In this document: positions 1,161-36,988 of the stretch, piece by piece | How positions within the stretch are numbered: position 1 is the stretch's first letter | Layout of the letters: every line of letters begins with the position of its first letter | Assembly (NCBI RefSeq): GCF_025685425.1 | Contig: NZ_JAGTAS010000052.1 | Location: forward strand, 124,001-188,000 | Length of the DNA: 64,000 nt | From: Terriglobus albidus | GTDB taxonomy: Bacteria; Acidobacteriota; Terriglobia; Terriglobales; Acidobacteriaceae | Direction of reading: 5' to 3' | Program-made: the position numbers and the translations under genes | The notes under the pieces: generated by a model | Database searches by the model: none | The model's input: only the letters and a program-made list of their open reading frames with translations | Told to the model about the DNA's origin: nothing

Positions 1161-1190
1161 GAACCCCGGCTACGGCCGGGGTTCTTCTTT
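1161..1190 (+). terminator. Rho-independent terminator after the aminotransferase
   Basis: A perfect 10-bp stem (GAACCCCGGC, loop TACG, GCCGGGGTTC) is followed by TTCTTT. It lies 27 bp after the aminotransferase stop and separates it from the aminopeptidase. Confidence 0.8.
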
Positions 1191-5039: not shown

Positions 5040-5120
5040 AAAACTCACCTTCCTTTCTTGCGATGCCCGAGGGGATCTGCTTTAGCTCTGTTCCCGCTCG
5101 AAACCCAACGGCAGAACGGA

Positions 5121-5185
5121 AGATTTCTCCGCTACTCTTCACTCCGGCAAAGCTGGCCGGGACCCGAGCGCTACGAAATGACAAA
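5121..5185 (-). repeat. Family D repeat, copy 1
   Basis: On the minus strand it reads TTTGTCATTTCG, then CGCTCGG, CCGGCCAGCTTTGCCGG, and ends GAAGAGTAGCGGAGAAATC. Copy 2 at 39634-39707 matches nearly throughout. It lies in the 377-bp gap between lspA and the small Cys-rich gene, which otherwise holds only copy b of family A and its shared left flank. Confidence 0.75.
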
Positions 5186-5249
5186 AAATAGCGAAGCCTC
5201 CCCTTGGACGTTTTTCCTCGTGTCGCTTGCATCTCATACAAACGCGAGA

Positions 5250-5364
5250 TAGAGCATTTCACTGTTGCTGGGAATCCCGGAAGGGGAGTGCAGCGGCGTT
5301 TTCATTGCGAAAAGCACTCATAGATGCGGAAGCCCTGCTCTACGCCTACAGGGAAAATGCTTTA
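5250..5364 (+). repeat. Family A palindromic element, copy b
   Basis: It begins TAGAGCATTTCACTG and ends GGGAAAATGCTTTA, with inner arm GCGTTTTCATTGCG. TA is present at both ends. The roughly 45 bp to its left (from about 5205) also precede copy d at 7484, so part of the flank is itself repeated. Confidence 0.85.
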
Positions 5365-5416
5365 AGCCAGAGAACTGGAGAGGAGTAAGATCGATCCCGT
5401 AGTATCTTTCCCGGCC

Positions 5417-5746
5417 ATGACCTCCAGAGAGCAATTCTCTCCGCTATGCGATGTGCACTACACCTCCATGCAAAGAATGATGGTGGAGGAAGATGGCGAG
5501 GAGATACAGTCGTATCACATCTGCGAGCGGCGCGATTGCAGCCGGGTATTCCGCGACGCCTTCGGGTATTCAGACTTGATTGAGGGGCAATTCGACAAGA
5601 GCCGCGCTTTTATCCGGAAGTGCCCGGCATGCGGGGCGATCCTTTATCTGGCCGAAGTGGATCAGCCCCGGAAGCTCGAGACTTGGGAATGCCCTCGAAT
5701 GAACTGCGAGTTCTCCGAGGAGTTCCCCTCCCCAGCAGCGCGCTGA
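5417..5746 (+). CDS. Small Cys-rich (zinc-ribbon-like) protein, unknown
   Basis: I do not recognise this 109-residue protein. It has four cysteine clusters: CDVH near residue 11, CERRDC near 37, CPACG near 69 and CPRMNC near 92. The last two look like a zinc ribbon, which suggests metal binding and possibly contact with nucleic acid or protein. There is no signal peptide or membrane segment. It is bracketed by family A repeats, copy b ending 52 bp upstream and copy c starting 10 bp downstream. The ATG start is the only reasonable one, and no strong Shine-Dalgarno sequence is visible. Even cysteine spacing supports a real gene. Confidence 0.65.
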   Translation: MTSREQFSPLCDVHYTSMQRMMVEEDGEEIQSYHICERRDCSRVFRDAFGYSDLIEGQFDKSRAFIRKCPACGAILYLAEVDQPRKLETWECPRMNCEFSEEFPSPAAR

Positions 5747-5755
5747 GTTTCTGAT

Positions 5756-5815
5756 TAGAGCGTTTTCCCTGTAGATGCGGAGGCTCTGGACTACACCTAC
5801 GGGCAAAACGCTCTA
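5756..5815. repeat. Family A palindromic element, copy c (short form)
   Basis: This 60-bp form keeps only the outer arms: TAGAGCGTTTTCCC at the left and GGGCAAAACGCTCTA at the right, without the inner palindrome. TA is present at both ends. Its last three bases, read on the minus strand, are the TAG stop of the secreted-protein gene that follows. Confidence 0.8.
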
Positions 5816-6202
5816 TTCTCTCTTGACATCGACTGTTCGGAACAACCTGCCATCCACTAATCGTAGAGTTCCGGTCATCCTTGCTCCGTCGACATGGAAA
5901 GTCCAGGTTCCTTTTTCAAAATGGCACACCAGAGTCTTGTCCCCGTAGCTACAGTCGAGCACGCCCATGGTCTCGCGCTTTCCGGAAACGATCTTATCCG
6001 CCTTCCAACTTAACTTACCGGGCGCGATCTCTTTGATCTGGTAAATCACATCTTCGTCGTGGCATGCAGACGGGCGTACCACACAGGTTGACTTTCCACT
6101 CCACTCCCCGAGCACGTCTTTGGTCTCTCCTGCCTGTGCAAACCCTGCTGTCCACAAGATCAAAACGGAGAACGAAACGGTGAGAGATCGGTATCGCATC
6201 AT
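5813..6202 (-). CDS. Small secreted protein, unknown function
   Basis: This is a predicted 129-residue exported protein. The start at 6202 (MMRYRSLTVSF) is chosen because AAGGAGG lies 8 bp before it. A longer frame to 6268 adds residues unlike a signal peptide. A hydrophobic signal ending in GFAQA is followed by a mature domain with four cysteines (two near STCVVRPSACH, then LDCSYG and VCHF), probably disulphide-bonded in the periplasm. The sequence LGEWSGKSTC and the ending in beta-like stretches suggest a small lipocalin-like barrel, which is inference only. The stop codon is supplied by the end of repeat copy c. Confidence 0.7.
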   Translation of the reverse strand: MMRYRSLTVSFSVLILWTAGFAQAGETKDVLGEWSGKSTCVVRPSACHDEDVIYQIKEIAPGKLSWKADKIVSGKRETMGVLDCSYGDKTLVCHFEKGTWTFHVDGARMTGTLRLVDGRLFRTVDVKRE

Positions 6203-6270
6203 GCTTTTATCCTCCTTGGGCTCCGCACGACAGGGCTGGCATCCTTCATTGGTTTCCAGCGCTCGCAAGG

Positions 6271-6687
6271 TCAGCGCTGGCTATTCACATATTCGGTGTC
6301 GTGGCGCCTGCCGAACTCAACCAGCGCCTGCTGATTTCTGGGTGGCCAAACTGGTTCCTTCTCCATCCAATCCATCAGTTCTGCAAAAAAGCTCTCATGA
6401 CCACCGGGGGTTGCGACCAAGAGGAATCGTGTGCGGTCATCGCTGCTGTTACGAAAAGAATGAACGTCACCCGGAAGGGCAACGGCACTATCGCCAGCGC
6501 GCAGAGTTCGGGTTTCTCCAGCGATGTCTGTGTCCAAGGAGCCCTCCAGTACAACAAACCTTTCAGCCATGTGCCTATGGAAGTGCAAGGGGGCTCCTGG
6601 AAAATGAGGGGGCACCGATAGTTCAATGAGACAATAGCGCCCTTCGGTTTCGGTGGATATTACCCGTAAATGAACCTCTGTATTCAT
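6271..6687 (-). CDS. Cupin-domain protein
   Basis: This is a 138-residue single-domain cupin. The metal-binding cupin motif 1 is visible as PLHFHRHMAERFVVLEG (His, His, Glu), and motif 2 lies around LPGDVHSFRNSSD. The start at 6687 (MNTEVHLRV) is chosen because upstream residues are the antisense of the divergent tetR gene. It may be a small-molecule binding protein, isomerase or dioxygenase-like enzyme; the substrate cannot be read. It is transcribed divergently from the TetR gene 49 bp away and shares its operator region, so it is the likely regulatory target. Confidence 0.8.
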   Translation of the reverse strand: MNTEVHLRVISTETEGRYCLIELSVPPHFPGAPLHFHRHMAERFVVLEGSLDTDIAGETRTLRAGDSAVALPGDVHSFRNSSDDRTRFLLVATPGGHESFFAELMDWMEKEPVWPPRNQQALVEFGRRHDTEYVNSQR

Positions 6688-7615: not shown

Positions 7616-8566
7616 GTGAACTTCAACATTCTCGGTAACTCAGATATGCAGCTTTCTCCCATCGGATTCGGCGCCTGGGCTATCGGCGGCGGCGGATGGG
7701 CCTTCGGTTGGGGCGCGCAGGAAGATAAAGACTCCATCGCTGCCATCGAACGCGCTCTGGACCTCGGTGTCAATTGGATCGACACCGCTGCCGTCTACGG
7801 GCTGGGACACTCAGAAGAGGTCGTCGCCAAGGCGCTGCGCAAGTCTGCACACAAGCCTTGGATCTTCACCAAGTCCAGTATGGTGTGGGACGACAAGGGC
7901 AACATCACCAACTCCATGAAGCAGATCAAACGGGAGTGTGAAGACTCGCTACGCCGGCTGAATCTCGACGTGATCGATCTGTACCAGATTCACTGGCCGA
8001 AACCCGACGAAGAGATCGAAGAGGGCTGGACGGCGATGGCCGATCTGCAGCGCGAGGGCAAGGTGCGCTGGATCGGTGTCTCAAACTTCTCTGTCGACCA
8101 GATGAAGCGCGCGCAGAAGATTGCTCCCATCACCTCGCTGCAGCCGCCCTACTCCATGCTGAAGCGCGATTACGAGGCGGAGGTGCTTCCCTTCTGCCGG
8201 GAGAACGGCATCGGCGTTATTAACTACTCGCCCATGCAGAGCGGTATGCTCACCGGCAAGATGACCAAAGAGCGCGTCGCCCAGATGCCGGACGACGACT
8301 TCCGCAAACGCGCCCTGAATTACCAGGAGCCGAAGCTCTCGCAGAACCTCAAGGTCGCAGACAAGCTGAAAGAGATCGGGGCGAAGTACGGCGTGACTGC
8401 CGGCGTCATCGCCATCGCCTGGACGCTGAAGAATCCTGCGATCACGGCGGCCATTGTCGGCGGACGCAATCCGCAGCAGGTGGAGGAGACCGCGGCCGCG
8501 CTCGACTTCGTTCTGCCGGACGAGGAATACAAAGCGATCAACGACTATCTACAATCAAACGCATAG
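7616..8566 (+). CDS. Aldo/keto reductase
   Basis: This is a 316-residue NADPH-dependent aldo/keto reductase with a TIM barrel. The start is a GTG at 7616, because AAAGGAG lies 6 bp upstream and the protein then opens with the family's usual beta-hairpin (LGNSDMQLSPIGFGAW). An in-frame ATG at 7499 lies inside repeat copy d and should be ignored. The catalytic tetrad is visible: Asp and Tyr in DTAAVYG, Lys in IFTKSS and His in YQIHWP. The C-terminal GGRNPQQVEE resembles the cofactor phosphate-binding segment. The substrate is not predictable. The promoter must lie in or before the repeat. Confidence 0.9.
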   Translation: MNFNILGNSDMQLSPIGFGAWAIGGGGWAFGWGAQEDKDSIAAIERALDLGVNWIDTAAVYGLGHSEEVVAKALRKSAHKPWIFTKSSMVWDDKGNITNSMKQIKRECEDSLRRLNLDVIDLYQIHWPKPDEEIEEGWTAMADLQREGKVRWIGVSNFSVDQMKRAQKIAPITSLQPPYSMLKRDYEAEVLPFCRENGIGVINYSPMQSGMLTGKMTKERVAQMPDDDFRKRALNYQEPKLSQNLKVADKLKEIGAKYGVTAGVIAIAWTLKNPAITAAIVGGRNPQQVEETAAALDFVLPDEEYKAINDYLQSNA

Positions 8567-8623
8567 GCTTTGCGGCTCTGTCTATTCTTTGGATAGGCAG
8601 AGCTACACTGCGTGAGCATTTGT

Positions 8624-10180
8624 ATGAAGATTCTTACTGCAGAGCAGATGGGCGAGACGGACCGGCGCACCGCCGCGGAGTTCGGCTTCTCCATGCAGGA
8701 GTTGATGGAGAACGCCGGTATCTCCGTCGCGTGCTTTGCGCTGCGGCGTTATCCCGAGGCACGCCGCATCGTCGTCCTCTGCGGCAAGGGCAATAACGGG
8801 GGCGATGGCTTCGTCGCTGCCCGACGCCTGCACGCCTCCGCGCGGAAGGTCCAGGTGATCGTTCTGGCCGCAGGCAAAGACGATCTGCGGGGCGACGCCG
8901 CCCACGCCTTCAGCGCGCTGGACGCTCCGGTGACCTTCGCGACGGAAAATATCGTCCTTCCCGAAGCTGATCTCTATATCGACGCGATCTTCGGCACTGG
9001 ATTCAAGCCTCCGATACGTGGCCTGGCCTGCAACCTGCGAGAACAACTGATCCAGCTTGCAAAACCTGTTTTGGCCGTCGATCTTCCCTCGGGGTGGGAT
9101 GCGGACTCGCACGAACCTACCGCCGGGGGGGCATTTCCCGCCGACTCTGTCGTAACCTTTACCGCCCCGAAGCCGGCGCACATCTTCGGACAGTTGAACC
9201 GGGATGCTGCTTTCGGTGCAGTCGCAGTTGCCCCGATCGGCTCTCCCGCGGAATCTCTGCCCAAAACCGACCTTACCTGGACCGGCTCCTCCAAAGCGCT
9301 GACGGAGGCGCCTCGCCCACTGAACAGCAACAAGGGACGCTTCGGACACGTTCTGGTGCTCGGCGGCTCGAGAGGAAAATCCGGAGCCGCGGCAATGGCT
9401 TCACTCGCAGCACTGCGTTCCGGCGCGGGCCTGGTTACAGCCGCGGTGCCTGATTCCGTGCTCGATTCCGTAGCGCGCATTGCTCCGGAGTTGATGAGCC
9501 TGCCGCTTCAGGAGACCGGAGGTCATGTTGCCCTGGCGAACTTCGACACGCGCACGCAGTGGCTGGAGAAGATCAGCGTTCTCGCCATCGGCCCCGGCCT
9601 GGGAACACAGCCGGAGACGACCGAGTTCGTTCGGCGCACAGTGCTAAAAACAGCTCTTCCGATCGTTATCGATGCCGATGCCCTGAATGCCTTTGCCGAA
9701 AAACCAGAGCTATTGCGCGCACAGGCCGGACGCGTGATGGTGTTGACACCGCACCCAGGTGAGATGGCGCGCCTTCTTCGTATCTCTGTCAAAGAAGTAG
9801 AGGCCGACCGAATCGGAATTGCCCGTCACTATGCCACCGATCGCAACCTGACCCTGGTGCTGAAGGGCTGGCGGACTCTGGTGGCCCATCCGGATGGAGA
9901 GATCTCGGTCAACACCACCGGACACCCCGCGATGTCGAAGGGCGGCAGTGGAGACATTCTGACAGGCATTGTTGCAGCCATGCTGGCTCAGTATCCCGAT
10001 CACGTCAAAGACGCCGTAAACGCCGCCGTCTATCTGCATGGTCTCGCCGGCATGATGGCTGCGCGCCACCAGGACGAACATACGGTGCTCGCCACCGACA
10101 CATTGGCCCATCTGAGCGACGCCTTCCGCTACTGTACCGCGGACGAAGACGGCCTCACCTGGGTTGGAGGACTTCGCTAG
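8624..10180 (+). CDS. nnrD: Bifunctional NAD(P)HX epimerase/dehydratase
   Basis: This enzyme repairs damaged (hydrated) NAD(P)H by epimerising the R form and dehydrating the S form with ADP or ATP. The N-terminal YjeF_N domain shows GKGNNGGDGFVAARRL, DAIFGTG and DLPSGWDAD. The C-terminal carbohydrate-kinase-like domain starts near NKGRFGHVLVLGG and includes VIDADALNAF, TPHPGEMARL and MSKGGSGDILTG. The fused two-domain form is common in bacteria. The ATG at 8624 (MKILTAEQM) is preferred to a GTG at 8612, which adds four residues; neither has a strong Shine-Dalgarno sequence. tsaE begins 4 bp after the stop, a widespread gene pair. Confidence 0.93.
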   Translation: MKILTAEQMGETDRRTAAEFGFSMQELMENAGISVACFALRRYPEARRIVVLCGKGNNGGDGFVAARRLHASARKVQVIVLAAGKDDLRGDAAHAFSALDAPVTFATENIVLPEADLYIDAIFGTGFKPPIRGLACNLREQLIQLAKPVLAVDLPSGWDADSHEPTAGGAFPADSVVTFTAPKPAHIFGQLNRDAAFGAVAVAPIGSPAESLPKTDLTWTGSSKALTEAPRPLNSNKGRFGHVLVLGGSRGKSGAAAMASLAALRSGAGLVTAAVPDSVLDSVARIAPELMSLPLQETGGHVALANFDTRTQWLEKISVLAIGPGLGTQPETTEFVRRTVLKTALPIVIDADALNAFAEKPELLRAQAGRVMVLTPHPGEMARLLRISVKEVEADRIGIARHYATDRNLTLVLKGWRTLVAHPDGEISVNTTGHPAMSKGGSGDILTGIVAAMLAQYPDHVKDAVNAAVYLHGLAGMMAARHQDEHTVLATDTLAHLSDAFRYCTADEDGLTWVGGLR

Positions 10181-17996: not shown

Positions 17997-19382
17997 TGCG
18001 CTCGCTTCCAGTTTTGACAACAACAGCGCTCCGGCGTGAGAGACATTCCCTGCTCCCAGGGTCAGGATGACGTCTCCTTCACGGGCTTCCGTTGCCAGTG
18101 CCTGCACCGCCGCTTCCATGCTTTCAGCGTGAGACACAGACGGATGCCCGGTAAGGCGAACCTCCTCCACCAGCGCCGGAGTATTCACGCCGGGGATGGG
18201 CTGTTCGCTGGCGGCATAGATGTCGAGCACCTGCAGCACATCTGCATCACCAAAGGAACCGGCGAACTCCGCCATCAGATCGCGGGTACGGGTATAACGA
18301 TGCGGTTGGAAGAGCACCAGTACGCGTCCGTAGCCGCATTCCCTGGCGGCGCGAAGGGTCGCCTGCACCTCGGTGGGGTGATGACCGTAGTCGTCGACGA
18401 TCGTGATGCCGCGAGCCACTCCTTTAATCTGGAAGCGGCGATCGACTCCGCGAAACGCAGCAATTCCCTCGATGAGCTTGTCATCCGTCACTCCAAGCTG
18501 CACCCCGATGGCCACTGCCGCGGTCGCGTTCAGCACGTTGTGCTTCCCGGGAACATGCAGCTCCAGCGGCCCGATCACACGTCCCTGATGGACTACCTGA
18601 AAGCACGCGTGGGAGCCCGCTGTGCGCGGCAGCATCTTTAACCGGAAGTCGGCCTCTTCGCGCTCGCCGTAGGTATAGATGCGGCGGCTCGCCCGCGGCA
18701 GGATCGCGCGCAACAGGTCATTGTCGATGCATGCTGTGACTGCTCCATAGAATGGCACGCGGTCCATAAAGGTAATGAAGGCGCCTTCGACATCTTCCAT
18801 GTCGCGGTAGCAGTCCATATGCTCCCGGTCGAGATTGGTCACGACGGCGAGGACGCTGGGGAGCTTGAGGAAGGAGCGATCGCTCTCATCGGCTTCGGCT
18901 ACCAGATACTGTGAGGTCCCTAGGCGGGCATTCGAGCCCAGAGCAGCGACACGCCCGCCGACCACGACTGTCGGGTCCAGGCCTCCGGCGGCCAGCACCG
19001 AGGCCACCATCGAGGTAGTAGTGGTTTTGCCATGCATACCGGCAACGGCGATGCCGTACTTCAGCCGCATCAGCTCGGCCAGCATCTCGGCGCGCTGAAT
19101 GACGGGAACCTTACGCGATCTTGCATCCAGCACTTCAGGGTTGTCTTTGGCTACGGCAGAGCTGGTCACCACGACATCGGCCTCGGCGGCATTCTCCGCA
19201 CGATGCCCTTCAAAGATCACAGCGCCGAGCTTTTCCAGCCGGTCGGTCACGGGCGAGCGCCGCAGATCGGAGCCGGAGACGGAATATCCCATCGTCAACA
19301 GGATCTCCGCAATCCCACTCATACCGATGCCGCCAATGCCAATAAAGTGAACCCGTTGTGTTGGTGCAAACATAGGTTTCAC
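17994..19382 (-). CDS. murC: UDP-N-acetylmuramate-L-alanine ligase
   Basis: MurC adds the first amino acid of the peptidoglycan stem, joining L-alanine to UDP-MurNAc with ATP in the cytoplasm. The N-terminal nucleotide-sugar loop is FIGIGGIGMSG, the ATP loop is AGMHGKTTTTSM (about residue 114), the metal-binding segment is VAEADESD, and DDYGHHPTEV marks the C-terminal domain. The length is a normal 462 residues. The coding sequence ends normally (KLEASA) and its TAG stop is formed by the end of repeat copy e. It starts the division cluster murC-ftsQ-ftsA-ftsZ on the minus strand. Confidence 0.96.
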   Translation of the reverse strand: MKPMFAPTQRVHFIGIGGIGMSGIAEILLTMGYSVSGSDLRRSPVTDRLEKLGAVIFEGHRAENAAEADVVVTSSAVAKDNPEVLDARSRKVPVIQRAEMLAELMRLKYGIAVAGMHGKTTTTSMVASVLAAGGLDPTVVVGGRVAALGSNARLGTSQYLVAEADESDRSFLKLPSVLAVVTNLDREHMDCYRDMEDVEGAFITFMDRVPFYGAVTACIDNDLLRAILPRASRRIYTYGEREEADFRLKMLPRTAGSHACFQVVHQGRVIGPLELHVPGKHNVLNATAAVAIGVQLGVTDDKLIEGIAAFRGVDRRFQIKGVARGITIVDDYGHHPTEVQATLRAARECGYGRVLVLFQPHRYTRTRDLMAEFAGSFGDADVLQVLDIYAASEQPIPGVNTPALVEEVRLTGHPSVSHAESMEAAVQALATEAREGDVILTLGAGNVSHAGALLLSKLEASA

Positions 19383-19416
19383 TGTATCAAGGTGAGGAGT
19401 TCTGGCCCTGTGGACA

Positions 19417-19452
19417 CAAAACAGAAGGGCGCGGATTGCTCCGCGCCCCTTC
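19417..19452 (-). terminator. Rho-independent terminator of the TonB-dependent receptor
   Basis: On the minus strand a GC-rich stem (GAAGGGGCGCGGA, a short loop, TCCGCGCCCTTC) is followed by TGTTTTG. It lies 20 bp past the receptor stop and before murC. Confidence 0.75.
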
Positions 19453-19471: not shown

Positions 19472-22400
19472 TTAGAACATGATCTTCCCACCCAGCGTGA
19501 TCAGACGCGGGAAGTTGATGGCGTTGGTGGATACCTGGCCGAAGGAAGAGGAACCCACTTTCAGGGCTGCCGAGGAGATCGCGAACTGCGGTGTATTGGT
19601 CAGGTTCATGAACTCCGCACGGAACTGCATGGTCACGCGCTCCGCATGGAAATCCTTGAAGATAGATGCATCCACGTTCCGGTATCCGGGAGCCTGGCAG
19701 CTGCCGATGGTACGAGGAGCGTTGCCATTGTTCCCCTGTCCCGGGTCCGCAAAGGCGCTGGTATTGAAGAACAGCTTATTGCCATTCTGGCCATTGCGGC
19801 TCTGAACCGAACCGGAGGTGCATACGTCCACTCCCGGAACCAGATTCGGACGCTGCACGGCATTTCCGTAGCCGGAGTTGTTATTCGTATTCAACTGAAT
19901 CGGAACCGGCCCGCCCTGCTGTGCGACGAAGGTTGAATTCAGATCCCAACCGCCAACCGCGAGATCAATCCAGCGGTTGTGGCTGAGGTAGGCGCGGCCT
20001 CTTCCGAATGGAAGCTGCCAGGTACCGGCAGCCGTATAACGAAGAGGCGTATTGTTGATCGCGCGAGCATACTCACCATTCAGGTTGTAGATATCCTGCG
20101 GTCCGTTGTTGCCGGGGTTCAGGCTGCTGCCCTGACCGAAGCTGGAGTCCCAGTTCGAGGACCAGGTCAATGCCGTCACGAAGGTTGCGCCGTGCGCCAT
20201 CTTCTTCTGGGCCTTGATGATCATTGAGTTGTACAAGGACTTCGAGTTGCTCGGCTGAATACTGACGGTCGTAAATTCAGGGAATGGTTTGCAGAGCTGC
20301 GAGTTGGCTACGGTTGCCGCAGCGATCGCTCCGATTCCACCCTTATTGTAGTAAGGGTTGGAGCTTTTCGCGTTGAGGAAGGTTGCAGCCGAAGCACCGG
20401 TGTTGGCAGGGCAGGCACCCTGGCCGTAAGGAATTGCGCCCAGGTTGACCTGATCCAGGTTATAGGTGGTGCCGTTGCCAGGCAGCAGGTTACGTCCCTT
20501 CGAACCGACATACCCCAACTGCAACGCCACACCGTATGGCAGTTCACGCTGGATATCGAGCGAGTACTGCTGCACCACCGGCGACCGGCGATTCTGATCG
20601 ATCGTCGTGAGAGCGTCGCCAAGTCCCTGCGAATATCCGAGCGAATTACCTACAGGCTGGTTGATTCCGTTCGGATAAGGGTTCGCGAGGGAGTTTGCCG
20701 GCGTATTGTTGCTGTCGTTAGAGGCAACATACGAGGTGGTCGACACATAACCAGGAGCCAGCGAGGCGCTCGTGGAGTAGTAGATCGGAGCATAAAAGAC
20801 GCCGTATCCGGCACGAACAACCGTCTTCTGGTCAAGAGAGTAGACCAGGCCGATACGTGGAGCGAACTTCGTATTGCTGTTGTTGCAGCAGGTAGTGGGG
20901 TAACCGTTCTGGCCGGCGAACATGATACCGCCCTTGGTCGCTACGCCAGAGGTAGAAGAAATTGGATTGGAGACAGTACGGTCGAAACCGATCGCGTATT
21001 TATTGTTCCGCTCGTGGACTCCAGGCTCATATTCATAACGTAGACCGGCATTGAGGGTCAGCCGGCTGGTTAAGCGGTAATCATCCTGGATATAGAAGGC
21101 ATGGTACGGAACATTGAGTGCGATCTTGCTGGCGATCTGTACCTGGCCGGTTGTTGGGTAGCCGAGCAGCAGGTCGGCAATATCGGCACCAGTGGCGAGA
21201 CCACCTACGTTTTTCGAGTTCGCATTGATAGCGGTAAAGGTGTTGTTGAAGGTAAAGAAGCCATTACCATTGCTGACGTTGGTGAAGTCTACGCTGATGG
21301 AACGGTAGACGTAACCACCTTTCAGTGACTGTTTACCGAGCGACTTGGAAATGCCTGCAACGAAGTTGCGAGAGTAGAACGCCGCCGGTCCGGAGTTATT
21401 GGTTCCCAACTGTGCATTGATCTGTGTCAGCGTCACTCGCGGAAACGACTTCTTCTGAAGCGCGCTTACATAGCTGGAAGGTAGACCGAGCTGCGTCTGA
21501 TCGTAATTATTGGTAAGGTCGAGGGTGTTGTTCGGGAAGCGATTGAACCCCCAGCCAACCGTCAATACCGTCGTCGGATTCAAGGTATAGGTCGTGTTGA
21601 CGGTGGTGGCGTCTACCTTACGGTAGAGCAGGTAGGAGTTGGTATCACCCGCAAACGAACCCAGCGGATTACCACCTGGCTCCTTCGAGCCATAGTGCAT
21701 ATAGGAGATGTTCGCAGCCCAACGTTGGGTGATCTGATGATCGAGCTTGCCAACGAACTCGTCCGCCCGGTCGCCAAGAAGATCCGTTGGACGGAAGTTG
21801 GTACCACCATAGGAAGTAGTCGCTGTGCAGATGGAAGTGCAGGTCGGCAGCGCGGCAAGGATCTTCTGGCCGATCGCAGACTGACGGCTGGAAGGAATGA
21901 TATTGCCTGCGAACTGCGTACGATTACCCGTCGATCCAGTCGTCGCCGGATCATAAATCTTCAGTTGAGTTGTCCGCGCAACATCTGCATAGCTGCTGGA
22001 AAAATCACCGCTGCGCTCTGCCGCCGTTGGCAAATAGTAGTTCGTCGCCAGAGGAGAGCGCTGACGATAACCTTCTTCGGTCAGCCAGAAGAACGTCTTA
22101 TCTTTGCCGTTGTACAGGTGAGGAATCACAACGGGACCACCAATGGATCCTTCATAGGTGTACTGCGTGATGTTCGGACGTCCGGTGCCGTTGTAGTTGT
22201 TGTTCCAGGTGTTCGCTGACCAGTTGGTCTGACGCGTTGTGCCGAGCAGGTTGCCGTGCAGCGTGTTCGTACCGCTCTTCAGCAGCGTGTTGAAGTTACC
22301 ACCACCGGTACGGCCCATTTCTGCATCGTAGGTGTTGGTCTGGATCTTCATTTCCTGCACGGCGTCGACCGAAGGAATGATCACGGCTCGGTTGGAGAAA

Positions 22401-23023
22401 TCGGTAACCGGTACGCCATCGATCTCGTAGTTATTGCCGTTGATCGGTCCGCCTGAAACGGAGATCGCCGATGAACCGGACTGGTCCTGGAAACGATTGA
22501 AGCGCGGATCGCCCGTTGCCGTCACGTTGGTGTTGAGCTTGGTGAGGAGGAAGGGATTGCGGCCCAGGTTGGGAAGATCCTGCAGCTTCTGGGTATCGAA
22601 GACCTGACCATTCGATGCGGTAGAGCTATCGACAAGCGGTGCGTCTGCGGTGACTTCAACCGTCGTGGACGAGGCGCCAACCGCGAGAGGGGTATCAATG
22701 GTCACCGTCTGCTGCGTGGCGACGTTGACGCCCTTACGGACATATGTCTGGAAGTTTGCCGAGGTCACCGTCAGATCGAAGGTGCCAGGATCGACGGCGC
22801 TGAACAGGTACTCGCCGGCTCCATTTGAAACCGCGGTACGTGCAATCTTGGTGTTTACATCGGTCAACGTAACGGTAGCGCCGGCAATTGCGGCACCCTG
22901 GGAATCAGTGACACTGCCTTTCAGCGTGCCGTAATAGGATTGCGCGAGCATGCCGGGTGCGAACATCAACGCCACCGCCAGCAGCCCCATCAGCCATTGG
23001 AAACGAGTACGGATAACAGCCAC
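19472..23023 (-). CDS. Oar-like TonB-dependent receptor with carboxypeptidase-regulatory domain
   Basis: This is an outer-membrane receptor of about 1183 residues. After a signal peptide ending MFAPGMLAQ comes a carboxypeptidase-regulatory-like domain (GTLKGSVTDSQGAAIAGATV), then a TonB plug region (about residues 130-250) and a long beta-barrel ending in phenylalanine (TLGGKIMF), as outer-membrane proteins do. The GTG at 23023 is preferred because AGGGAGG lies 5 bp upstream; an in-frame GTG at 23056 is weaker. Such receptors are greatly expanded in Acidobacteria and are usually guessed to import carbohydrate or peptide. Divergence from an exported aminotransferase and a dipeptidase favours peptides here, which is inference. 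A terminator follows. Confidence 0.92.
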   Translation of the reverse strand: MAVIRTRFQWLMGLLAVALMFAPGMLAQSYYGTLKGSVTDSQGAAIAGATVTLTDVNTKIARTAVSNGAGEYLFSAVDPGTFDLTVTSANFQTYVRKGVNVATQQTVTIDTPLAVGASSTTVEVTADAPLVDSSTASNGQVFDTQKLQDLPNLGRNPFLLTKLNTNVTATGDPRFNRFQDQSGSSAISVSGGPINGNNYEIDGVPVTDFSNRAVIIPSVDAVQEMKIQTNTYDAEMGRTGGGNFNTLLKSGTNTLHGNLLGTTRQTNWSANTWNNNYNGTGRPNITQYTYEGSIGGPVVIPHLYNGKDKTFFWLTEEGYRQRSPLATNYYLPTAAERSGDFSSSYADVARTTQLKIYDPATTGSTGNRTQFAGNIIPSSRQSAIGQKILAALPTCTSICTATTSYGGTNFRPTDLLGDRADEFVGKLDHQITQRWAANISYMHYGSKEPGGNPLGSFAGDTNSYLLYRKVDATTVNTTYTLNPTTVLTVGWGFNRFPNNTLDLTNNYDQTQLGLPSSYVSALQKKSFPRVTLTQINAQLGTNNSGPAAFYSRNFVAGISKSLGKQSLKGGYVYRSISVDFTNVSNGNGFFTFNNTFTAINANSKNVGGLATGADIADLLLGYPTTGQVQIASKIALNVPYHAFYIQDDYRLTSRLTLNAGLRYEYEPGVHERNNKYAIGFDRTVSNPISSTSGVATKGGIMFAGQNGYPTTCCNNSNTKFAPRIGLVYSLDQKTVVRAGYGVFYAPIYYSTSASLAPGYVSTTSYVASNDSNNTPANSLANPYPNGINQPVGNSLGYSQGLGDALTTIDQNRRSPVVQQYSLDIQRELPYGVALQLGYVGSKGRNLLPGNGTTYNLDQVNLGAIPYGQGACPANTGASAATFLNAKSSNPYYNKGGIGAIAAATVANSQLCKPFPEFTTVSIQPSNSKSLYNSMIIKAQKKMAHGATFVTALTWSSNWDSSFGQGSSLNPGNNGPQDIYNLNGEYARAINNTPLRYTAAGTWQLPFGRGRAYLSHNRWIDLAVGGWDLNSTFVAQQGGPVPIQLNTNNNSGYGNAVQRPNLVPGVDVCTSGSVQSRNGQNGNKLFFNTSAFADPGQGNNGNAPRTIGSCQAPGYRNVDASIFKDFHAERVTMQFRAEFMNLTNTPQFAISSAALKVGSSSFGQVSTNAINFPRLITLGGKIMF

Positions 23024-23569
23024 TACAACCTCCCTGAGAACTTCTTTTCGTGACACATGCCTTGGGCCACCGGCGGGTACACGTGTGCGCGCACACGGCG
23101 GCGGCAGTTCCGTGAGAAAGAACTTTGAGCGGCGACGAGATGCGGCTGTGCATCGACTTATGTCGATGTGCCGACACGACGCCCCTTGGCGTTTTCGCCT
23201 TGACTGTCAGTTGCTCTACAAAAAAGGACCGGTACTGCTTACAACTATCTCTGCGAATCTGCTCTTGCTACGACGGAAGAACAAACTTGAACTTACGAGA
23301 CTGCTGTGAGGGTTCCGCATTGTTCGGCGCGGAACGAAACCACGTACATAGACTCCGGCAGCCTCCTGCGAGTCGTTCGGGCCCGAGGATGCTAACCGTA
23401 GGTTGGTGAGATTGGTTTGAGTCTGCCAGCACCCCGGTAACGTGTCAACGAATTTTTATATTGATCTCTTCATCTATTCGCATTCACTTGAAGATTTCTT
23501 CGACTTCCCTCAAGATTTGAAGACACCCGGCCCCCGCGATCCACGTGTTTTTCAACAAGGAGATATGTC
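23024..23569. promoter_or_regulatory. Long divergent intergenic region with two palindromes
   Basis: This 546-bp gap separates the receptor (minus) from the aminotransferase (plus), so it must hold both promoters. It contains the perfect palindrome CGTGTGCGCGCACACG at 23082-23097 and CATCGAC-N4-GTCGATG at 23151-23168, both on the receptor side. I cannot assign promoter boxes with confidence, and no coding region is convincing. The aminotransferase has a good Shine-Dalgarno sequence (AAGGAG) just before 23570. Confidence 0.5.
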
Positions 23570-24790
23570 ATGTCGTCCCCGGTTTCCCGCCGCTCGTTCC
23601 TCTGTAGTATGGGTGCTGCCGCCGCCAGCATCCCGGTCCTCACCGAATCTCACTTTGCCTGGGCAGCACAACAGACTGGCGCAGCACCCGCAAAACAACC
23701 TTCACAGATGCAGATGATGAAGCAGATGATGGCCTCCATGCCGAAGGACGCCGTGCTCATCAATGCCAACGAAAATCCGCTCGGCCCCTGCGAGGCAGCC
23801 CGCACCGCCATCGCCGAAGTTGCCGCCAAAGGTGGACGCTACGACTTCCTGGAAATGTTTTCGCTCATGGAGGTCTTCGGCAAACAAAATGGTGTCGAGC
23901 CCGACTACGTTGCCGTCTATGCCGGATCGAGCGAGCCACTCCACTACTCCGTCCTGAAGTACACCGGACCCGACAAGCCACTGGTCACGGCCAACCCAAC
24001 CTATGAGGCTGCGCAGCGCGCCGCTGCAATCGCCGGCGCCAAGACCATCACCAAAGAGCTCACCTCCACCTATTCTCATGACGTGAAGGCTCTAGCCGCC
24101 GCGGCGCCGAACGCCGGCGTGATCTATCTGTGCAACCCCAACAACCCGACCGGCACCATCACGTCACGTGAAGACATCCTGTGGCTGCTGGACAACAAGC
24201 CGAAGGAGACCATGCTTCTGGTCGACGAGGCTTACATCCATCTCTCCGATGCGAAGAGCGTTGTTGATCAGGTCAACACGCGCAAGGACATCATCATCCT
24301 GCGCACCTTCTCGAAGATCTATGGCATGGCGGGTATCCGCGCCGGGCTTGCCGTGGCGCATCCGGAGGTCCTCAAGAAGCTGACCGAGTGCGGCGAAAAT
24401 GCCATGGCGGTCACCTCTTCGATCGCGGCGCGCGTCTCCCTGGAAGACAAGGACCTGGTGCCCGCGCGCAAGAAGTACATTGGCGAGGCTCGCACCGAGA
24501 CACTGAAGTTCCTGACCGACTGCGGATACAAGGTCATTCCGGGTTCGCAGTCCAACTGCTTCATGATCGATACCGGCCGTAACGGCCGTCAGGTGATGGC
24601 GGCGATGGCGCAGAAGAAGGTCATCATCGGCCGCACCTGGCCCATCTGGCCTAACGTCGTACGCATCTCCGTCGGCACCAAGGAGGATATGGCGAAGTTC
24701 CGTACGGCCTTCAAGGAAGTGATGGACACTCCGGTCAAAGCGGACCTCGAACAGATGGAACGTATCGCCGTTCCGGTGCACTTCTCCTGA
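23570..24790 (+). CDS. Tat-exported PLP-dependent aminotransferase, HisC-like
   Basis: This is a fold-type I aminotransferase of 406 residues. It begins with a twin-arginine signal (SRRSFLCSMGAAAASIPVL) and a short linker, so it should be folded with PLP in the cytoplasm and exported. The catalytic core has NANENPLGP, NPNNPTGT, VDEAYIHL and FSKIYGMAGIRAG with the PLP lysine. It is a paralogue of the gene at 1-1134. AAGGAG lies 8 bp before the ATG. The nearest named relative is histidinol-phosphate aminotransferase, but a periplasmic PLP enzyme beside a dipeptidase suggests a role on amino acids released outside the cytoplasm. The substrate is unknown. Confidence 0.9.
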   Translation: MSSPVSRRSFLCSMGAAAASIPVLTESHFAWAAQQTGAAPAKQPSQMQMMKQMMASMPKDAVLINANENPLGPCEAARTAIAEVAAKGGRYDFLEMFSLMEVFGKQNGVEPDYVAVYAGSSEPLHYSVLKYTGPDKPLVTANPTYEAAQRAAAIAGAKTITKELTSTYSHDVKALAAAAPNAGVIYLCNPNNPTGTITSREDILWLLDNKPKETMLLVDEAYIHLSDAKSVVDQVNTRKDIIILRTFSKIYGMAGIRAGLAVAHPEVLKKLTECGENAMAVTSSIAARVSLEDKDLVPARKKYIGEARTETLKFLTDCGYKVIPGSQSNCFMIDTGRNGRQVMAAMAQKKVIIGRTWPIWPNVVRISVGTKEDMAKFRTAFKEVMDTPVKADLEQMERIAVPVHFS

Positions 24791-24810
24791 TCGCATCGAA
24801 CCAGCCGCAC

Positions 24811-24846
24811 AACGGCTCCGGTCACACCGGAGCCGTTTATCTTTTA
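24811..24846 (+). terminator. Rho-independent terminator between aminotransferase and dipeptidase
   Basis: A perfect 12-bp stem (AACGGCTCCGGT, loop CAC, ACCGGAGCCGTT) is followed by TATCTTTT. The dipeptidase start is 29 bp further on, so termination may be partial. Confidence 0.8.
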
Positions 24847-24874
24847 CTCATCCATCCCGCACAAGGAGTTTGTT

Positions 24875-26095
24875 TTGGTCTCTGCCCGTCGTATCGCCGC
24901 CGCTACCCTCTTGCTTCCCATGGCAGCCTTTGCTCAAAAGAAGGTGACCGATGCCGAGGTGAACAAGATCACCCGTGAAGCCATCCTGATCGACATGCAT
25001 AACGACATCACCTCCGAGACGGTGACGGGATACGATATCGCCACGCCCAACAAGAAAGGACAGACTGACCTTGCCCGCATGAAAGGCGTGCTGGGAGGCG
25101 AGTTCTTCGCCGTCTATGTGGGAGCGAATTATGTCGAAGGAAATCACTCGGCGAACCGGGCGCTACAGATGATCGATACGGTGCGCCACGATGTTGTTGA
25201 GGGCCATCCGAAAGACTTCCTTCTTGCGACCACTGCCGCCGACGTCTATGAGGCGAAGAAGCAGGGCAAGATTGCAGCCTTGATGGGTATCGAAGGCGGA
25301 CACGCCATTGAGGATTCTCCTCGCCTGCTGCGCGATTTCTACACCCTGGGCGTCCGTTACATGACGCTGACGCACTTCAACACCAATAACTGGGCAGACT
25401 CGCAGGGCGATATCGACAACCCAAAGGTGGAACACCATAACGGCCTCACGCCGCTGGGCAAAGAGATCGTCAAGGAGATGAACCGCCTGGGCATGATGGT
25501 CGATATCTCGCACACGGCAGACAAGACCTTCTGGGATGCCCTTGAAACCTCCACCGCGCCCATCATTGCATCGCACTCCGGCTGCCGCGCCGTCACCGGA
25601 TACACCCGCAATATGACTGACGAGATGATTAAGGCGCTTGCAGCCAAAGGCGGCGTCGTCAATATCAACTTCGGTTGCGAGTTCCTTTCGCAAAGCTACT
25701 TTGAAGGCTCGCGGGAGTTGAATGCGAAGATCCGCCCGCAATATGAAGCAGCGCAGAAGATTAGCGATCCCAAGGAGCGTGAGGCCGCCGTGGATAAGAT
25801 TCGCGAACAGTTCGCGGGAGCGCTTCCACCTGCAACCATTGACGATGTGGTCGCACATATCGATCACGTCCGCCAGGTTGCAGGCATCGACGCCATCGGC
25901 ATTGGAACTGATTTCGACGGTGTGGCCTGTGTTCCCAAGGACCTTGATTCTTACGCGAAGTTCCCTAACCTGACGCGCAAGCTGCTGGAGAAGGGCTACA
26001 CCGGGGAAGACATCAAGAAGATCTATGGAGCCAACATGCTGCGCGTGATGAAGGCTGTGGAAGATCGTGCCAAGGCGATTCAGTCAGGAAAGTAA
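24875..26095 (+). CDS. M19-family (renal-type) dipeptidase, exported
   Basis: This is a 406-residue zinc dipeptidase. The TTG start at 24875 is supported by AAGGAG 6 bp upstream and by a short signal peptide (RRIAAATLLLPMAAFAQ). The M19 ligands are visible: HxD in IDMHNDIT, Glu in MGIEGGHAIED, His in MVDISHTAD and His in IIASHSGCRA, with Asp in GIGTDFDGV. It hydrolyses dipeptides, probably in the periplasm. It follows the exported aminotransferase, which suggests a chain from receptor uptake to dipeptide cleavage and amino-acid turnover. A terminator hairpin lies between the two genes, so they may be only partly cotranscribed. Confidence 0.93.
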   Translation: MVSARRIAAATLLLPMAAFAQKKVTDAEVNKITREAILIDMHNDITSETVTGYDIATPNKKGQTDLARMKGVLGGEFFAVYVGANYVEGNHSANRALQMIDTVRHDVVEGHPKDFLLATTAADVYEAKKQGKIAALMGIEGGHAIEDSPRLLRDFYTLGVRYMTLTHFNTNNWADSQGDIDNPKVEHHNGLTPLGKEIVKEMNRLGMMVDISHTADKTFWDALETSTAPIIASHSGCRAVTGYTRNMTDEMIKALAAKGGVVNINFGCEFLSQSYFEGSRELNAKIRPQYEAAQKISDPKEREAAVDKIREQFAGALPPATIDDVVAHIDHVRQVAGIDAIGIGTDFDGVACVPKDLDSYAKFPNLTRKLLEKGYTGEDIKKIYGANMLRVMKAVEDRAKAIQSGK

Positions 26096-33882: not shown

Positions 33883-35055
33883 TTAGATCCGAACGAGTTC
33901 CCTCTGGATCTTTCCTGTCACGACCGCTTTGCCCGGCCGCGTGATCATGTTGACTTCACTGCGGAGACCGAACGCACCCGGATAGTACAACCCTGGTTCC
34001 ACGGAGAAGCAGGTCATCGGCAGGATCAGCCGTTCGTCGTGCGTTTCCAGGTTATCCAGATGCGCTCCGTTGCCGTGCAGCTCGATCGCAATATTGTGAC
34101 CGGTGCGATGCGTAAACCAGGCTGCCTGGCCGGCGTTGCGAATGACAGTACGCGAAGCCTCATCCGCCTCCCATCCCGCGATCGGACGATTCGCAGCAAA
34201 CGCCTCTTCGACGGTCTTGATGGCGGCATCGCGCGCTGCTGTTACCGTTGCGAAGGTCTGCTGTTCGCGTTCGGTCGGCTCGCGGTCTACGACACCGGTC
34301 CAGGTAATGTCATACCAGACTGCATTTGGGTCGCCCGCCATCTTCGACCAGATATCGATCAGGACAAAGTCTCCCTTGCGGATCGGTCGTGAGCTCGACG
34401 GCGAGGGCTCATAGTGAGAGTCGGCCGCATTGGGGCCGACGCTCACATTGGGTCCGTGCTCGGTGATCATGCCGGCTTGCTCGATCTTCTCCTTGAGCCA
34501 GTTCACCATGGTGAACTCATCGGTTCCACTGGAGCGCACACGGTCGCCAATCTGCTCCCAGCCCGCAGCAAGAATCTCATCCAGCAATACCTGCGCCTTG
34601 TAGTGTGAAGCGACCTGCTCCTCAGTAAGAACCGCCTCAAAGCGGCTGACCATATCCGCAGACGATACGATCTGCTTGCCCCAGCTCCGCAGCAGCTCCA
34701 CCGTTCCGGCATCCACCATCGACACATACATGATGGCGTTGCGCGGCGAGTACTGCATGGCGATCTTCGTCGCGCCGGTCGTCAGCCGTTCGAGCTTTGC
34801 TTCAAGTTCCTGCCAGGAGCTGTACTCTTCCTTCTGGCCAGGAAGCCCATCCAACCGCAGCGATTCGATGCGATGCACCAGCTTCTTCGGCTCGCCATAG
34901 GCGGGAACCAGATAGTACCAGCGGCGGGTGACATGCAATCCCCCGCCCAGGCCGAGGATGCGGTACGCGATAGGGTCGCGATAGTGATGGTCATAGAACA
35001 GCCATGCATCCGCGCCGATCTCGCGCAGAGCTTCCTGAATCGCTTGAAGGTTCAT
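33883..35055 (-). CDS. M24-family peptidase (Xaa-Pro aminopeptidase-like)
   Basis: This is a 390-residue pita-bread-fold metallopeptidase. The N-terminal creatinase-like domain runs to about residue 160. The C-terminal catalytic domain shows the five metal ligands in order: Asp in VLIDIW, Asp in WYDITWTG, His in RTGHNIAIELHG, Glu in FSVEPGLY and Glu in LRSEVN. It lacks a signal peptide, so it is cytoplasmic. It may remove N-terminal residues before proline or act on other dipeptides. It follows the DUF2911 gene after a strong terminator. Confidence 0.88.
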   Translation of the reverse strand: MNLQAIQEALREIGADAWLFYDHHYRDPIAYRILGLGGGLHVTRRWYYLVPAYGEPKKLVHRIESLRLDGLPGQKEEYSSWQELEAKLERLTTGATKIAMQYSPRNAIMYVSMVDAGTVELLRSWGKQIVSSADMVSRFEAVLTEEQVASHYKAQVLLDEILAAGWEQIGDRVRSSGTDEFTMVNWLKEKIEQAGMITEHGPNVSVGPNAADSHYEPSPSSSRPIRKGDFVLIDIWSKMAGDPNAVWYDITWTGVVDREPTEREQQTFATVTAARDAAIKTVEEAFAANRPIAGWEADEASRTVIRNAGQAAWFTHRTGHNIAIELHGNGAHLDNLETHDERLILPMTCFSVEPGLYYPGAFGLRSEVNMITRPGKAVVTGKIQRELVRI

Positions 35056-35068
35056 TGCTCCACTCCGG

Positions 35069-35110
35069 TTAAAAGACTAAGGCACGTCCTACCGGACGTG
35101 CCTTAGTCTT
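35069..35110 (-). terminator. Rho-independent terminator after the DUF2911 gene
   Basis: A perfect 17-bp stem (AAGACTAAGGCACGTCC and complement, loop of four) is followed on the minus strand by TTTT. It lies between the DUF2911 gene and the M24 peptidase gene. Confidence 0.82.
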
Positions 35111-35120
35111 CTCGGAAATC

Positions 35121-35666
35121 TTAACGAACGATGATCGGCACGGAGGCGTCTGTCGTCTCCCACTTGATGTGCATGTCCGTCCGTTTGCCCACGGTGTTCT
35201 CAAAGCTGATGCTCATCTTCTCCTGCGGAGAAGGCAGGGTCTTTACGTCCATGTTGACACGGACCAGATCGCGATCGGCATGGTACTCGGTGCCCCATTG
35301 CCCGGTCTCCATGCTGATGATCAGTTGCCACGACTTCTCGCCGGGCAGGGTGTAGATCGTGTAGTTGCCGGCTGCAACCGGCTTTCCAGCGACTGAGATA
35401 TTGCCGCCGCTCACAACGAAGGTAGTCGCTTCATTCGCTCCGGTACGCCACACCTGTCCGTAGGGCACCAGGCCACCCATGACCTTACGGCCGCGCATCG
35501 ACGGTGTGTGATAGTCCACGGTGATCTTTACAGGCCCCAGCGCAACCTCAGCCTTGGCCGGCGGACTCGCCATCGCGCCACCCGGTTGACCACCACCCAT
35601 CTGCGCCATCAGCGGGCTACAACAAAGCCCGGCCACGATACTCAGCAACATCGAACGACGATTCAT
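35121..35666 (-). CDS. DUF2911-domain exported protein
   Basis: This is a 181-residue protein. The start at 35666 (MNRRSMLLSIVAG) is chosen for GGAGG 5 bp upstream and a clear signal peptide ending SPLMAQ. A Gly-rich linker is followed by a DUF2911 domain, with VDYHTPSMRGRKVMG, YGQVWRTGANEAT, AGNYTIYTLPG and DLVRVNM as its conserved blocks. The family is common in Acidobacteria and Bacteroidetes and has no known function. It is followed by a strong terminator and preceded by the flavoprotein gene, 77 bp away. Confidence 0.88.
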   Translation of the reverse strand: MNRRSMLLSIVAGLCCSPLMAQMGGGQPGGAMASPPAKAEVALGPVKITVDYHTPSMRGRKVMGGLVPYGQVWRTGANEATTFVVSGGNISVAGKPVAAGNYTIYTLPGEKSWQLIISMETGQWGTEYHADRDLVRVNMDVKTLPSPQEKMSISFENTVGKRTDMHIKWETTDASVPIIVR

Positions 35667-35743
35667 GACAACCTCCGCCACCACTCTACATGGACGAAGG
35701 GTGTGTCATCCAATTCCTGACCGTCAGAAACTGGATGGCACTC

Positions 35744-36988
35744 CTATGCCATCTTGTTACCGCGGCGCTGCATCGCTTCCATACGGCTGTAGAGCTCCTG
35801 CAGCAGATGTACACCAGTCACGGCTTCTTCCTGGTTGGGCGTCTCATCGGTTTCGTTCCAGCCGGACTCTTCGCCGTTGAGACTGGTCTGCACGACAATG
35901 CCGTCGCGGCGAGCGACGATGTTTACGTTCTTATAGCCAAGACCGTAGTGCACATTCTCCTGCGGAATGAGCCATGCGATCTGACCGCGTACCGGCGTAA
36001 TCGACTCGTCATTCCAGAGAGCACGGCCACCGTAGCCCGGACAGTTAATGATGGTCTTCTGCGGCAGCGCCGCGAGATCGGCGGGAGAGTGGAACTCGAC
36101 CCTCTCAACCTTTCCACCTGCGATCAGAAAGTCGTTCATTAACTGGCGCGAGTAGTCGGCCACATTGAACATCAGGGTCGTATTGCGGCGTACATACTTC
36201 GTCGGGAATGGATGCGACCCAGCGGGCAGCAGTTGCGGCATTGCCGTGATATCCCGGATGCGCGAGGCGTAGCGCGCGAACTCATGACGTCCTGCCCCCT
36301 GCGCCTGGCTTTCGCGGCGCTTCTGCGCCTCTTCCGGTGAGAAATCGCTCAACTGGTAACTGTCAAAGTACTCGATCGGATTTCCCGGCATTCCGAGATA
36401 GCTCTGATACATCGACCAGCTGGTGCGCGCCATAAGCTCCCACAAATCGCCAAACGCGGGCGCCACTACATTGCTGAGAGCGACGCGTGAGTCCGGAGTC
36501 CAGCTTCCGGTAGCGCGTGCGGAACGCACCTCGGGTGGACGCTCCTTGGCGTAGATGGTGACATGGGCACCTGCACGCTGCGCCGTGATGGCAGAGGTAA
36601 GCCCCAGCGCGCCGCAGCCGATCACGGCAATCTCCTTATCGCCGTTGCTCGCCCTCATCGCGTTCTCGACCGCCACAGCCGCCGAGCCCCAGCTCAACGA
36701 CCATCCGCTGCCGCCGTGACCGTAATTATGCGAGACGATCTTGTCACCGACCTTCTCTACCTCAAGCCGGGGACCCTGCGCACGGAAAGGACGCAGGCAT
36801 ACCGTAATGCGGAAAAGGCGGTCTTCATGGGCGCGGATCGGCACCAGCTCGGGTACGCGGTCATAGAACGGCAGTGCTGGAGCGGTTGCGCTGCCTGCTG
36901 TCACCGGCCTCTTCGCACACCCGGCCAGGCCGAGCATGCCGACCCCCGCAAATGCACTCGACTGTCGCAAAAACTCACGCCGTTTCAT
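35744..36988 (-). CDS. Tat-exported D-amino-acid-oxidase-like flavoprotein, apparently circularly permuted
   Basis: This is a 414-residue protein with a twin-arginine signal (MKRREFLRQS) and a possible lipobox (LAGC, Cys24). The FAD Rossmann motif AVIGCGALGL is at residues 121-130, not at the N-terminus of the mature protein. Before it, at 66-101, lie RPFR and HNYGHGGSGWSLSWG, blocks that in eukaryotic D-amino-acid oxidase (RPVR, HNYGHGGYGLTIHWG) are near the C-terminus. After it come INCPGYGGRALW, PVRGQIAWL and a GWNETDE segment, which match the middle of that enzyme, and the protein then stops. It should oxidise D-amino acids or a related amine in the periplasm. The order change is discussed in the findings. 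Confidence 0.85.
   Translation of the reverse strand: MKRREFLRQSSAFAGVGMLGLAGCAKRPVTAGSATAPALPFYDRVPELVPIRAHEDRLFRITVCLRPFRAQGPRLEVEKVGDKIVSHNYGHGGSGWSLSWGSAAVAVENAMRASNGDKEIAVIGCGALGLTSAITAQRAGAHVTIYAKERPPEVRSARATGSWTPDSRVALSNVVAPAFGDLWELMARTSWSMYQSYLGMPGNPIEYFDSYQLSDFSPEEAQKRRESQAQGAGRHEFARYASRIRDITAMPQLLPAGSHPFPTKYVRRNTTLMFNVADYSRQLMNDFLIAGGKVERVEFHSPADLAALPQKTIINCPGYGGRALWNDESITPVRGQIAWLIPQENVHYGLGYKNVNIVARRDGIVVQTSLNGEESGWNETDETPNQEEAVTGVHLLQELYSRMEAMQRRGNKMA

Follow-up and report, generated by a model that had tools for sequence, protein, structure and literature searches.

The nearest named function, by profile score, to the gene discussed here is PtaA of Pseudomonas fluorescens, a periplasmic transaminase that depends on pyridoxal phosphate (PLP), bears a twin-arginine translocation (Tat) signal, is reportedly exported folded with its cofactor and, as far as the available part of that report goes, turns the glutamate at the pyoverdine chromophore into alpha-ketoglutarate in the periplasm (PMC6206403). 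A second described system is the lao-cccA-ridA group of Gluconacetobacter diazotrophicus, in which a Tat-type L-amino-acid oxidase is encoded with a RidA protein and a cytochrome c; the accessible text states that its authors think it periplasmic and that oxidase mutants made no indole-acetate (PMC5053998). In this article, I compare both with a locus in a 64,000-nucleotide stretch of Terriglobus albidus DNA (the window: assembly GCF_025685425.1, contig NZ_JAGTAS010000052.1, positions 124,001 to 188,000, forward strand), where a predicted Tat-exported PLP aminotransferase, here called AT2, stands between an outer-membrane receptor and an M19 dipeptidase. Like PtaA it is a Tat-type PLP transaminase, so far as the available account of PtaA allows the comparison, and it is tentatively explained below as one member of a loosely linked set of peptide-breakdown genes; the novelty lies in the setting, the exported enzyme itself being of a kind already known. 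No description of an aminotransferase grouped with receptor and oxidase/RidA turned up in the literature searched, which covered few subscription papers. The features on which the argument turns are these:

19472 to 23056, minus strand: outer-membrane receptor with CarboxypepD_reg and OMP_b-brl_4 domains (Pfam domains), which I take to be Oar-like
23057 to 23569, no strand: divergent intergenic region of 513 bp between receptor and AT2 (sequence)
23570 to 24790, plus strand: AT2, Tat-type PLP aminotransferase of the NF006580 subfamily, 406 amino acids, open reading frame verified (profile score, alignment)
23570 to 23665, plus strand: predicted Tat signal peptide of AT2, MSSPVSRRSFLCSMGAAAASIPVLTESHFAWA, cut likely after AWA (sequence, family-wide motif)
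24811 to 24847, plus strand: terminator-like hairpin in the gap between AT2 and M19, 12 pairs, loop of 3, T-rich tail (shuffle test)
24875 to 26095, plus strand: M19 dipeptidase with a Sec-like N-terminus and the motifs HND, EGGH, ISHT, SHSG and GTDFDG (Pfam, structures)

The aminotransferase and its export

AT2 scores 500.9 bits against the NCBIfam model NF006580 (PRK09105; curated cut-off 444), and it shares membership above that cut-off with a single other protein of the 6.1-Mb genome, a paralogue at the window start called AT1; Caulobacter vibrioides, included as a control, also scores over the cut-off. The model differs from the picture developed here in giving no substrate and no linkage to a receptor, RidA or oxidase. 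Next after NF006580 among the NCBIfam models ranks the PtaA equivalog NF051461, against which AT2 scores 399.3 bits, below the model's cut-off of 500, and AT2 departs from PtaA also in its neighbours, the M19 dipeptidase and the Oar-like receptor. Across 18 aligned sequences the invariant residues of AT2 are S6, R7, R8 and F10, N191, N192 and P193, D219 to Y222, K249 and R365, several of them lying in the motifs NNPTG, DEAY, FSKIYG (with K249) and RISVG (with R365), and with the catalytic roles of these residues assigned, as I have done, from knowledge of the family, the predicted Schiff-base lysine and carboxylate arginine identify AT2 as a PLP transaminase of fold type I. Genes of the mur/fts group also lie near AT2 in the window.

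A preliminary description of this DNA had remarked on an RRSFL signal at the start of an aminotransferase, and the signal is there: the N-terminus reads SRRSFL, behind which lie a hydrophobic segment and the cleavage-type site AWA. The pattern S-R-R-x-F is invariant in the alignment of 18 homologues, RRx[FLM] with a hydrophobic stretch occurs in all 103 relatives surveyed (101 loci) and an AxA-like site in 101 of them, while among the six other class I/II aminotransferases of the genome a bare RRx[FLM] is found once, as RRAL in an extended upstream frame with charged residues after it. Since the twin-arginine motif is present and so conserved, and with TatC encoded in the genome, export of AT2 to the periplasm is very likely on sequence grounds.

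Neighbours of the aminotransferase in related genomes

The neighbourhoods surveyed comprise 101 loci with 103 copies of the aminotransferase: 80 loci are on named contigs, 20 come from genus and family genomes, and one is L009. AT2 itself is not among the copies, and L077 and L058 are near-copies of its locus. Of 579 stretches confirmed in the contig search the 80 best were retained, so the counts hold for the closest relatives only. Genes of the relatives were called with our own codon-score script, which placed some starts too late, and then clustered, the clusters being named from Pfam scans of representatives. Within three genes of the 103 copies there are 19 receptors of the window's type and nine of a second type, 18 SulP permeases (17 loci), 13 occurrences of an oxidase and/or an exported-type RidA (12 with oxidase, 10 with RidA), eight M29-like genes, eight dap clusters with a full-length M29 gene, and five M19 genes. 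On a quick tree of the aminotransferases, where gain and loss cannot be told apart, these linkages need 12 changes for the receptor, nine for oxidase/RidA and four for M19, and the receptor and oxidase/RidA linkages each occur in separate branches. The congener G018 has five such aminotransferases in total, and L063 (G018:C4:1768500-1788000) holds two further divergent Tat-type copies less than 6 kb apart.

The receptor had been described as divergent from the aminotransferase, and its open reading frame indeed runs on the opposite strand, so positioned that the intergenic region may be a shared control region. Outer-membrane receptors of Pfam PF25183 number 66 or more in this genome, a lower bound, since scoring covered 65 of 124 candidates. 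Because of this abundance I did not accept adjacency alone, and used an orthologue test instead, comparing the 31 receptor genes clustered in aminotransferase loci with all 66 paralogues of this genome, namely the window's receptor and 65 others (30 from search loci and 35 further). The window's receptor is the best match for 19 of the 31, by at least 291 bits in 16 cases and by 55-90 bits in three (L079, L114, L126), and 18 of these 19 adjoin the aminotransferase directly, with one gene between in L100. Such loci include Bryobacterales in which receptor, aminotransferase and SulP gene follow in close succession, as well as divergent layouts like that of the window. The remaining 12 have another best match, in nine of them the receptor of L262, which is the second type and stands in nine aminotransferase loci; a tblastn search for aminotransferase, M19, oxidase and RidA in 17 kb around the L262-type receptor of this genome found none. 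Of the neighbours found for AT2, the window's receptor is therefore the one whose conservation goes deepest, reaching across deep branches of Acidobacteriota, and the strongest link; a functional connection between receptor and AT2 is likely.

The oxidase has as its best solved relative the L-amino acid oxidase 2jae, presumably the enzyme of Rhodococcus opacus. Six of the 13 oxidases visibly begin with a Tat motif and eight of the 10 RidA proteins with a signal, some starts having been called too late; a member of the RidA cluster in L063 that has no signal was excluded from the oxidase/RidA label. Among 19 genomes of the genus, 18 have the oxidase and 17, this one included, have an exported-type RidA adjoining it, the pair of this genome lying outside the window at G000:C38:17285-18835 and 18946-19425. 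With its predicted activity, this pair resembles the Tat-type oxidase beside RidA in Gluconacetobacter as presented in the available text (PMC5053998), from which it differs in that the third gene there is a cytochrome c, that the same portion of text names no aminotransferase, M19 or receptor, and that the RidA here bears its own export signal. In L079 (Granulicella) receptor, aminotransferase, M19, RidA and oxidase all stand together, and L084 has aminotransferase, M19, a gene of 109 amino acids, RidA and then the oxidase, four genes away from the aminotransferase; L084 is filed as a Rhodanobacteraceae metagenome-assembled genome, possibly a wrong bin (GC 0.61, long branch). The congener G002 carries a receptor 63% identical to the window's with RidA and oxidase and no aminotransferase beside them. 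The two genes that border this group resemble the two that enclose the M19 orthologue in other congeners, at 87% and 60% identity in G006 and at 80% and 65% in G009, so that a single site in the chromosome is taken by M19 in two genomes and by receptor, RidA and oxidase in a third. Beside a second oxidase copy in G006 (L202:about 5000-6417) there is also a SelA/DgaE-like PLP enzyme with the Tat-type sequence VSRRRFLRW, which scores below the DgaE cut-offs.

The M19 gene was said to encode an exported dipeptidase directly after the aminotransferase, and it does so by prediction: it opens with a TTG codon behind AAGGAG, carries a Sec-like N-terminus, scores 347.8 bits against Pfam PF01244 (above cut-off) with the metal-binding motifs present, and aligns over nearly the whole protein with 3id7 and with renal dipeptidase 1itq, sharing their metal-ligand motifs. 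What sets it apart from 3id7, which I take to be Sco3058, and from 1itq is its predicted export and its place beside a transaminase. PvdM of pyoverdine maturation, an M19-like protein, would offer a further case of an M19 relative in the periplasm next to exported PLP enzymes. The adjacency of aminotransferase and M19 is kept where the aminotransferases are about 60% (L081) and 57% (L084) identical, and this neighbourship is real but narrow; conservation in Acidobacteria of a pairing of aminotransferase and peptidase, which the preliminary description had set as a test, is seen in a small group only. The hairpin in the window's gap is perfectly paired (z -3.93, 0 of 200 shuffles equally stable), and our own gap scan found hairpins in all eight AT1-M29 gaps (this genome's counted), in four of five scanned gaps before dapA and in none of the 17 AT-SulP gaps that served as control (0 of 6 where the gap is at least 80), the relatives not being independent; a general pattern scan gave terminator-like sites not clearly above shuffles (5 against 3.2 +- 1.9, and 11 against 6.4 +- 2.8). 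With hairpins between each aminotransferase of the window and its peptidase, simple co-transcription is doubtful and simple operons seem unlikely. A link of AT2 with M19 and with oxidase/RidA is plausible.

Weighing the explanations

The chromosomal place shared by M19 and by receptor, RidA and oxidase, taken with the varied arrangements above, makes these genes look like one functional set that has been shuffled, and this is the basis of the explanation that I favour, at somewhat less than even confidence: AT2 would be a PtaA-like, Tat-exported periplasmic transaminase in a loosely linked gene set for peptide breakdown together with the receptor, M19 and oxidase/RidA. One particular Oar-like receptor would import peptides, the exported M19 would split dipeptides, and the free amino acids would be transaminated by AT2 and also oxidatively deaminated by the Tat-type L-amino-acid oxidase, with exported RidA clearing the imine; the resulting 2-oxo acids could serve AT2 as amino acceptors, and amino groups would thereby be channelled to ammonia. 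The family, the predicted export signals, the linkage of aminotransferase and receptor, the partial linkage with M19, oxidase and RidA and the oxidase/RidA pair in this genome support the scheme; its substrates, the way each reaction runs and the joint action of the enzymes are all inferred. A periplasmic route in which imported peptides are cleaved and the released amino acids modified had been proposed earlier, and the receptor and the oxidase/RidA neighbourhoods fit this, whereas the two enzyme-peptidase pairs from which it was argued are not its basis. The available text on PtaA does not settle by what means periplasmic pyridoxamine is turned back into PLP, nor which role the family has in species that lack pyoverdine (PMC6206403), and here the conserved receptor and oxidase/RidA offer a testable answer, in that locally made oxo acids would be the acceptor and would serve the scavenging of peptide nitrogen by soil bacteria. 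The wider proposal that Acidobacteriota possess a periplasmic amino-acid degradation of this kind, with its own receptor, M19, Tat-exported transaminase, and an oxidase and exported RidA regenerating the 2-oxo-acid acceptor in a transdeamination cycle, is doubtful.

Several observations weigh against this gene set. The oxidase/RidA pair of this genome is on another contig than AT2, and the oxidase is found in 13 of 17 family genomes with the aminotransferase against four of 10 without (Fisher p 0.10), G009 having neither and G015 an oxidase pair without the aminotransferase; the association over 247 genomes (p 1.2e-12) was rejected as proof, being mostly kinship and not significant within the family. 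M19 stands beside the aminotransferase in just the five copies counted above, two of which (L058, L077) are near-copies of the window, it is not beside AT2 in the congener G018 (L062), G009 has the M19 orthologue and no aminotransferase of the family, and hairpins fill four of the five AT-M19 gaps of relatives (the exception is L079). For as many as 47 of the 103 copies, the three genes to either side carry none of the seven partner labels (in 12 of these a side is shorter than three genes), and these 47 include all 14 proteobacterial copies (L084 apart), whose neighbours, 74 proteins at 14 loci of which 61 were scanned, show TonB receptor domains in five, a D-aminopeptidase domain in two and are otherwise mixed. 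In the largest branch with receptor and aminotransferase, moreover, it is the SulP permease gene that comes third, in 17 loci, and neither a peptidase nor an oxidase gene.

Among the alternatives, AT2 might be a PtaA-like tailoring enzyme that acts on a residue in a larger secreted or imported molecule, such as a peptide siderophore or another peptide product, carried by the receptor. PtaA itself acts on the chromophore-bound glutamate of pyoverdine in the periplasm and, in the text available, occurs also in species without pyoverdine (PMC6206403), and both its second-best rank among the NCBIfam models for AT2, at 399 bits, and the receptor linkage agree with such a role; the score is nevertheless under the PtaA cut-off of 500 bits, and no product-assembly family appeared among the neighbour proteins scanned (part of the neighbours only, the genome not having been searched for such genes), which leaves tailoring rather unlikely. 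Just behind it, and likewise unlikely, comes the view that AT2 and M19 are independent, ordinary exported enzymes, side by side in a few related genomes through common descent and sharing no pathway, as the terminator-like hairpin between them, the rarity of their adjacency and the solitary M19 of G009 would have it; against it, the adjacency persists at the AT identities seen in L081 and L084, and the same receptor, RidA and oxidase recur in different orders.

The paralogue at the window start and the oxidase relative

A last alternative concerns the cell wall, and it draws on AT1, which together with its neighbours is placed as follows:

1 to 1134, plus strand: AT1, the larger part of a Tat-type paralogue whose gene starts 120-135 bases before the window (profile score)
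1161 to 1184, plus strand (L009:9161-9184): terminator-like hairpin in the gap between AT1 and the M29-like gene, 10 pairs, loop of 4 (shuffle test)
1240 to 2295, plus strand: M29-like protein, signal peptide not visible (Pfam, by eye)

The whole AT1 gene (L009:7866 or 7881 to 9134) has an N-terminal Tat-type SRRNFM, which lies outside the window, and scores 461.6 bits against NF006580, above the cut-off of 444; against the PtaA model the part within the window reaches 355.3 bits, below 500. That a paralogue at 1-1134 is followed by an M29-like reading frame was verified. The M29-like protein matches Pfam M29 at 50.1 bits (cut-off 27) over residues 157-347, its C-terminal half only, and with that match alone and no signal peptide seen by eye at its N-terminus it is probably cytoplasmic. 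The hairpin before it is perfectly paired with a T-rich tail (z -2.60, 3 of 200 shuffles equally stable). The idea of two duplicated enzyme-peptidase pairs, which had rested on AT1 and AT2 each having a peptidase behind it, was accordingly given up: M19 and M29 are unrelated families and so the pairs are not duplicates, the M29-like partner lacks a visible signal, and a hairpin stands in both gaps. In the genus, AT1 often lies 3' of ATP-grasp-like and YbdK-type carboxylate-amine ligase genes and 5' of the M29-like gene; in this genome the two upstream genes are at L009:5020-7626, and they are kept in several congeners (ATP-grasp-like is our own label, a Pfam scan of one homologue having given no family).

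In one Granulicella/Edaphobacter branch AT1, with its Tat motif retained, is preceded by asd, lysC, dapB and M29 genes at all eight loci (L101, L103, L104, L108, L111, L112, L123, L130, of which L123 is cut by a contig end), with dapA downstream in six and dapD in five, each gene family being named on one representative; an exported transaminase in such a dap setting is unexplained. That the subfamily works on cell-wall material in the periplasm, on diaminopimelate, D-amino acids or peptidoglycan peptides, would agree with this setting, with a D-aminopeptidase gene after the aminotransferase in L090 and with the ability of M19 enzymes to split L,D-dipeptides, but is quite improbable, the dap setting being limited to a single AT1 branch (one change on the tree) and seen in no AT2-type copy among the surveyed loci, with hairpins between AT1 and dapA in four of the five loci scanned.

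One further exported-type enzyme of the window had been listed in the preliminary description, a D-amino-acid-oxidase-like (DAO-like) protein, and its reading frame and N-terminus are as described:

35744 to 36988, minus strand: protein related to D-amino-acid oxidase, with a Tat/lipoprotein-type N-terminus and an apparent circular permutation (alignment, fold)

Its residues 58-114 align with 320-376 of D-amino acid oxidase 7ct4 and its residues 116-164 with 5-53 of D-amino acid oxidase 1c0i, and in all eight aligned sequences (the window's and L205-L211) the C-terminal motif is found ahead of the Rossmann domain, none of them showing the native domain order; the protein thus looks circularly permuted. 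A Foldseek search with its AlphaFold model, a weak one (pLDDT, the predicted local distance difference test, 58.7; eight sequences), ranked D-amino-acid and D-aspartate oxidases 1 to 33 at template-modelling scores of only 0.34-0.54, and a literature search judged by titles and abstract openings found no circularly permuted D-amino acid oxidase. The gene occurs in eight of the 247 phylum genomes and so is not a fixed part of the gene set. Directly adjoining it are genes for an M24 peptidase and a DUF2911 protein at 33883-35684 on the minus strand.

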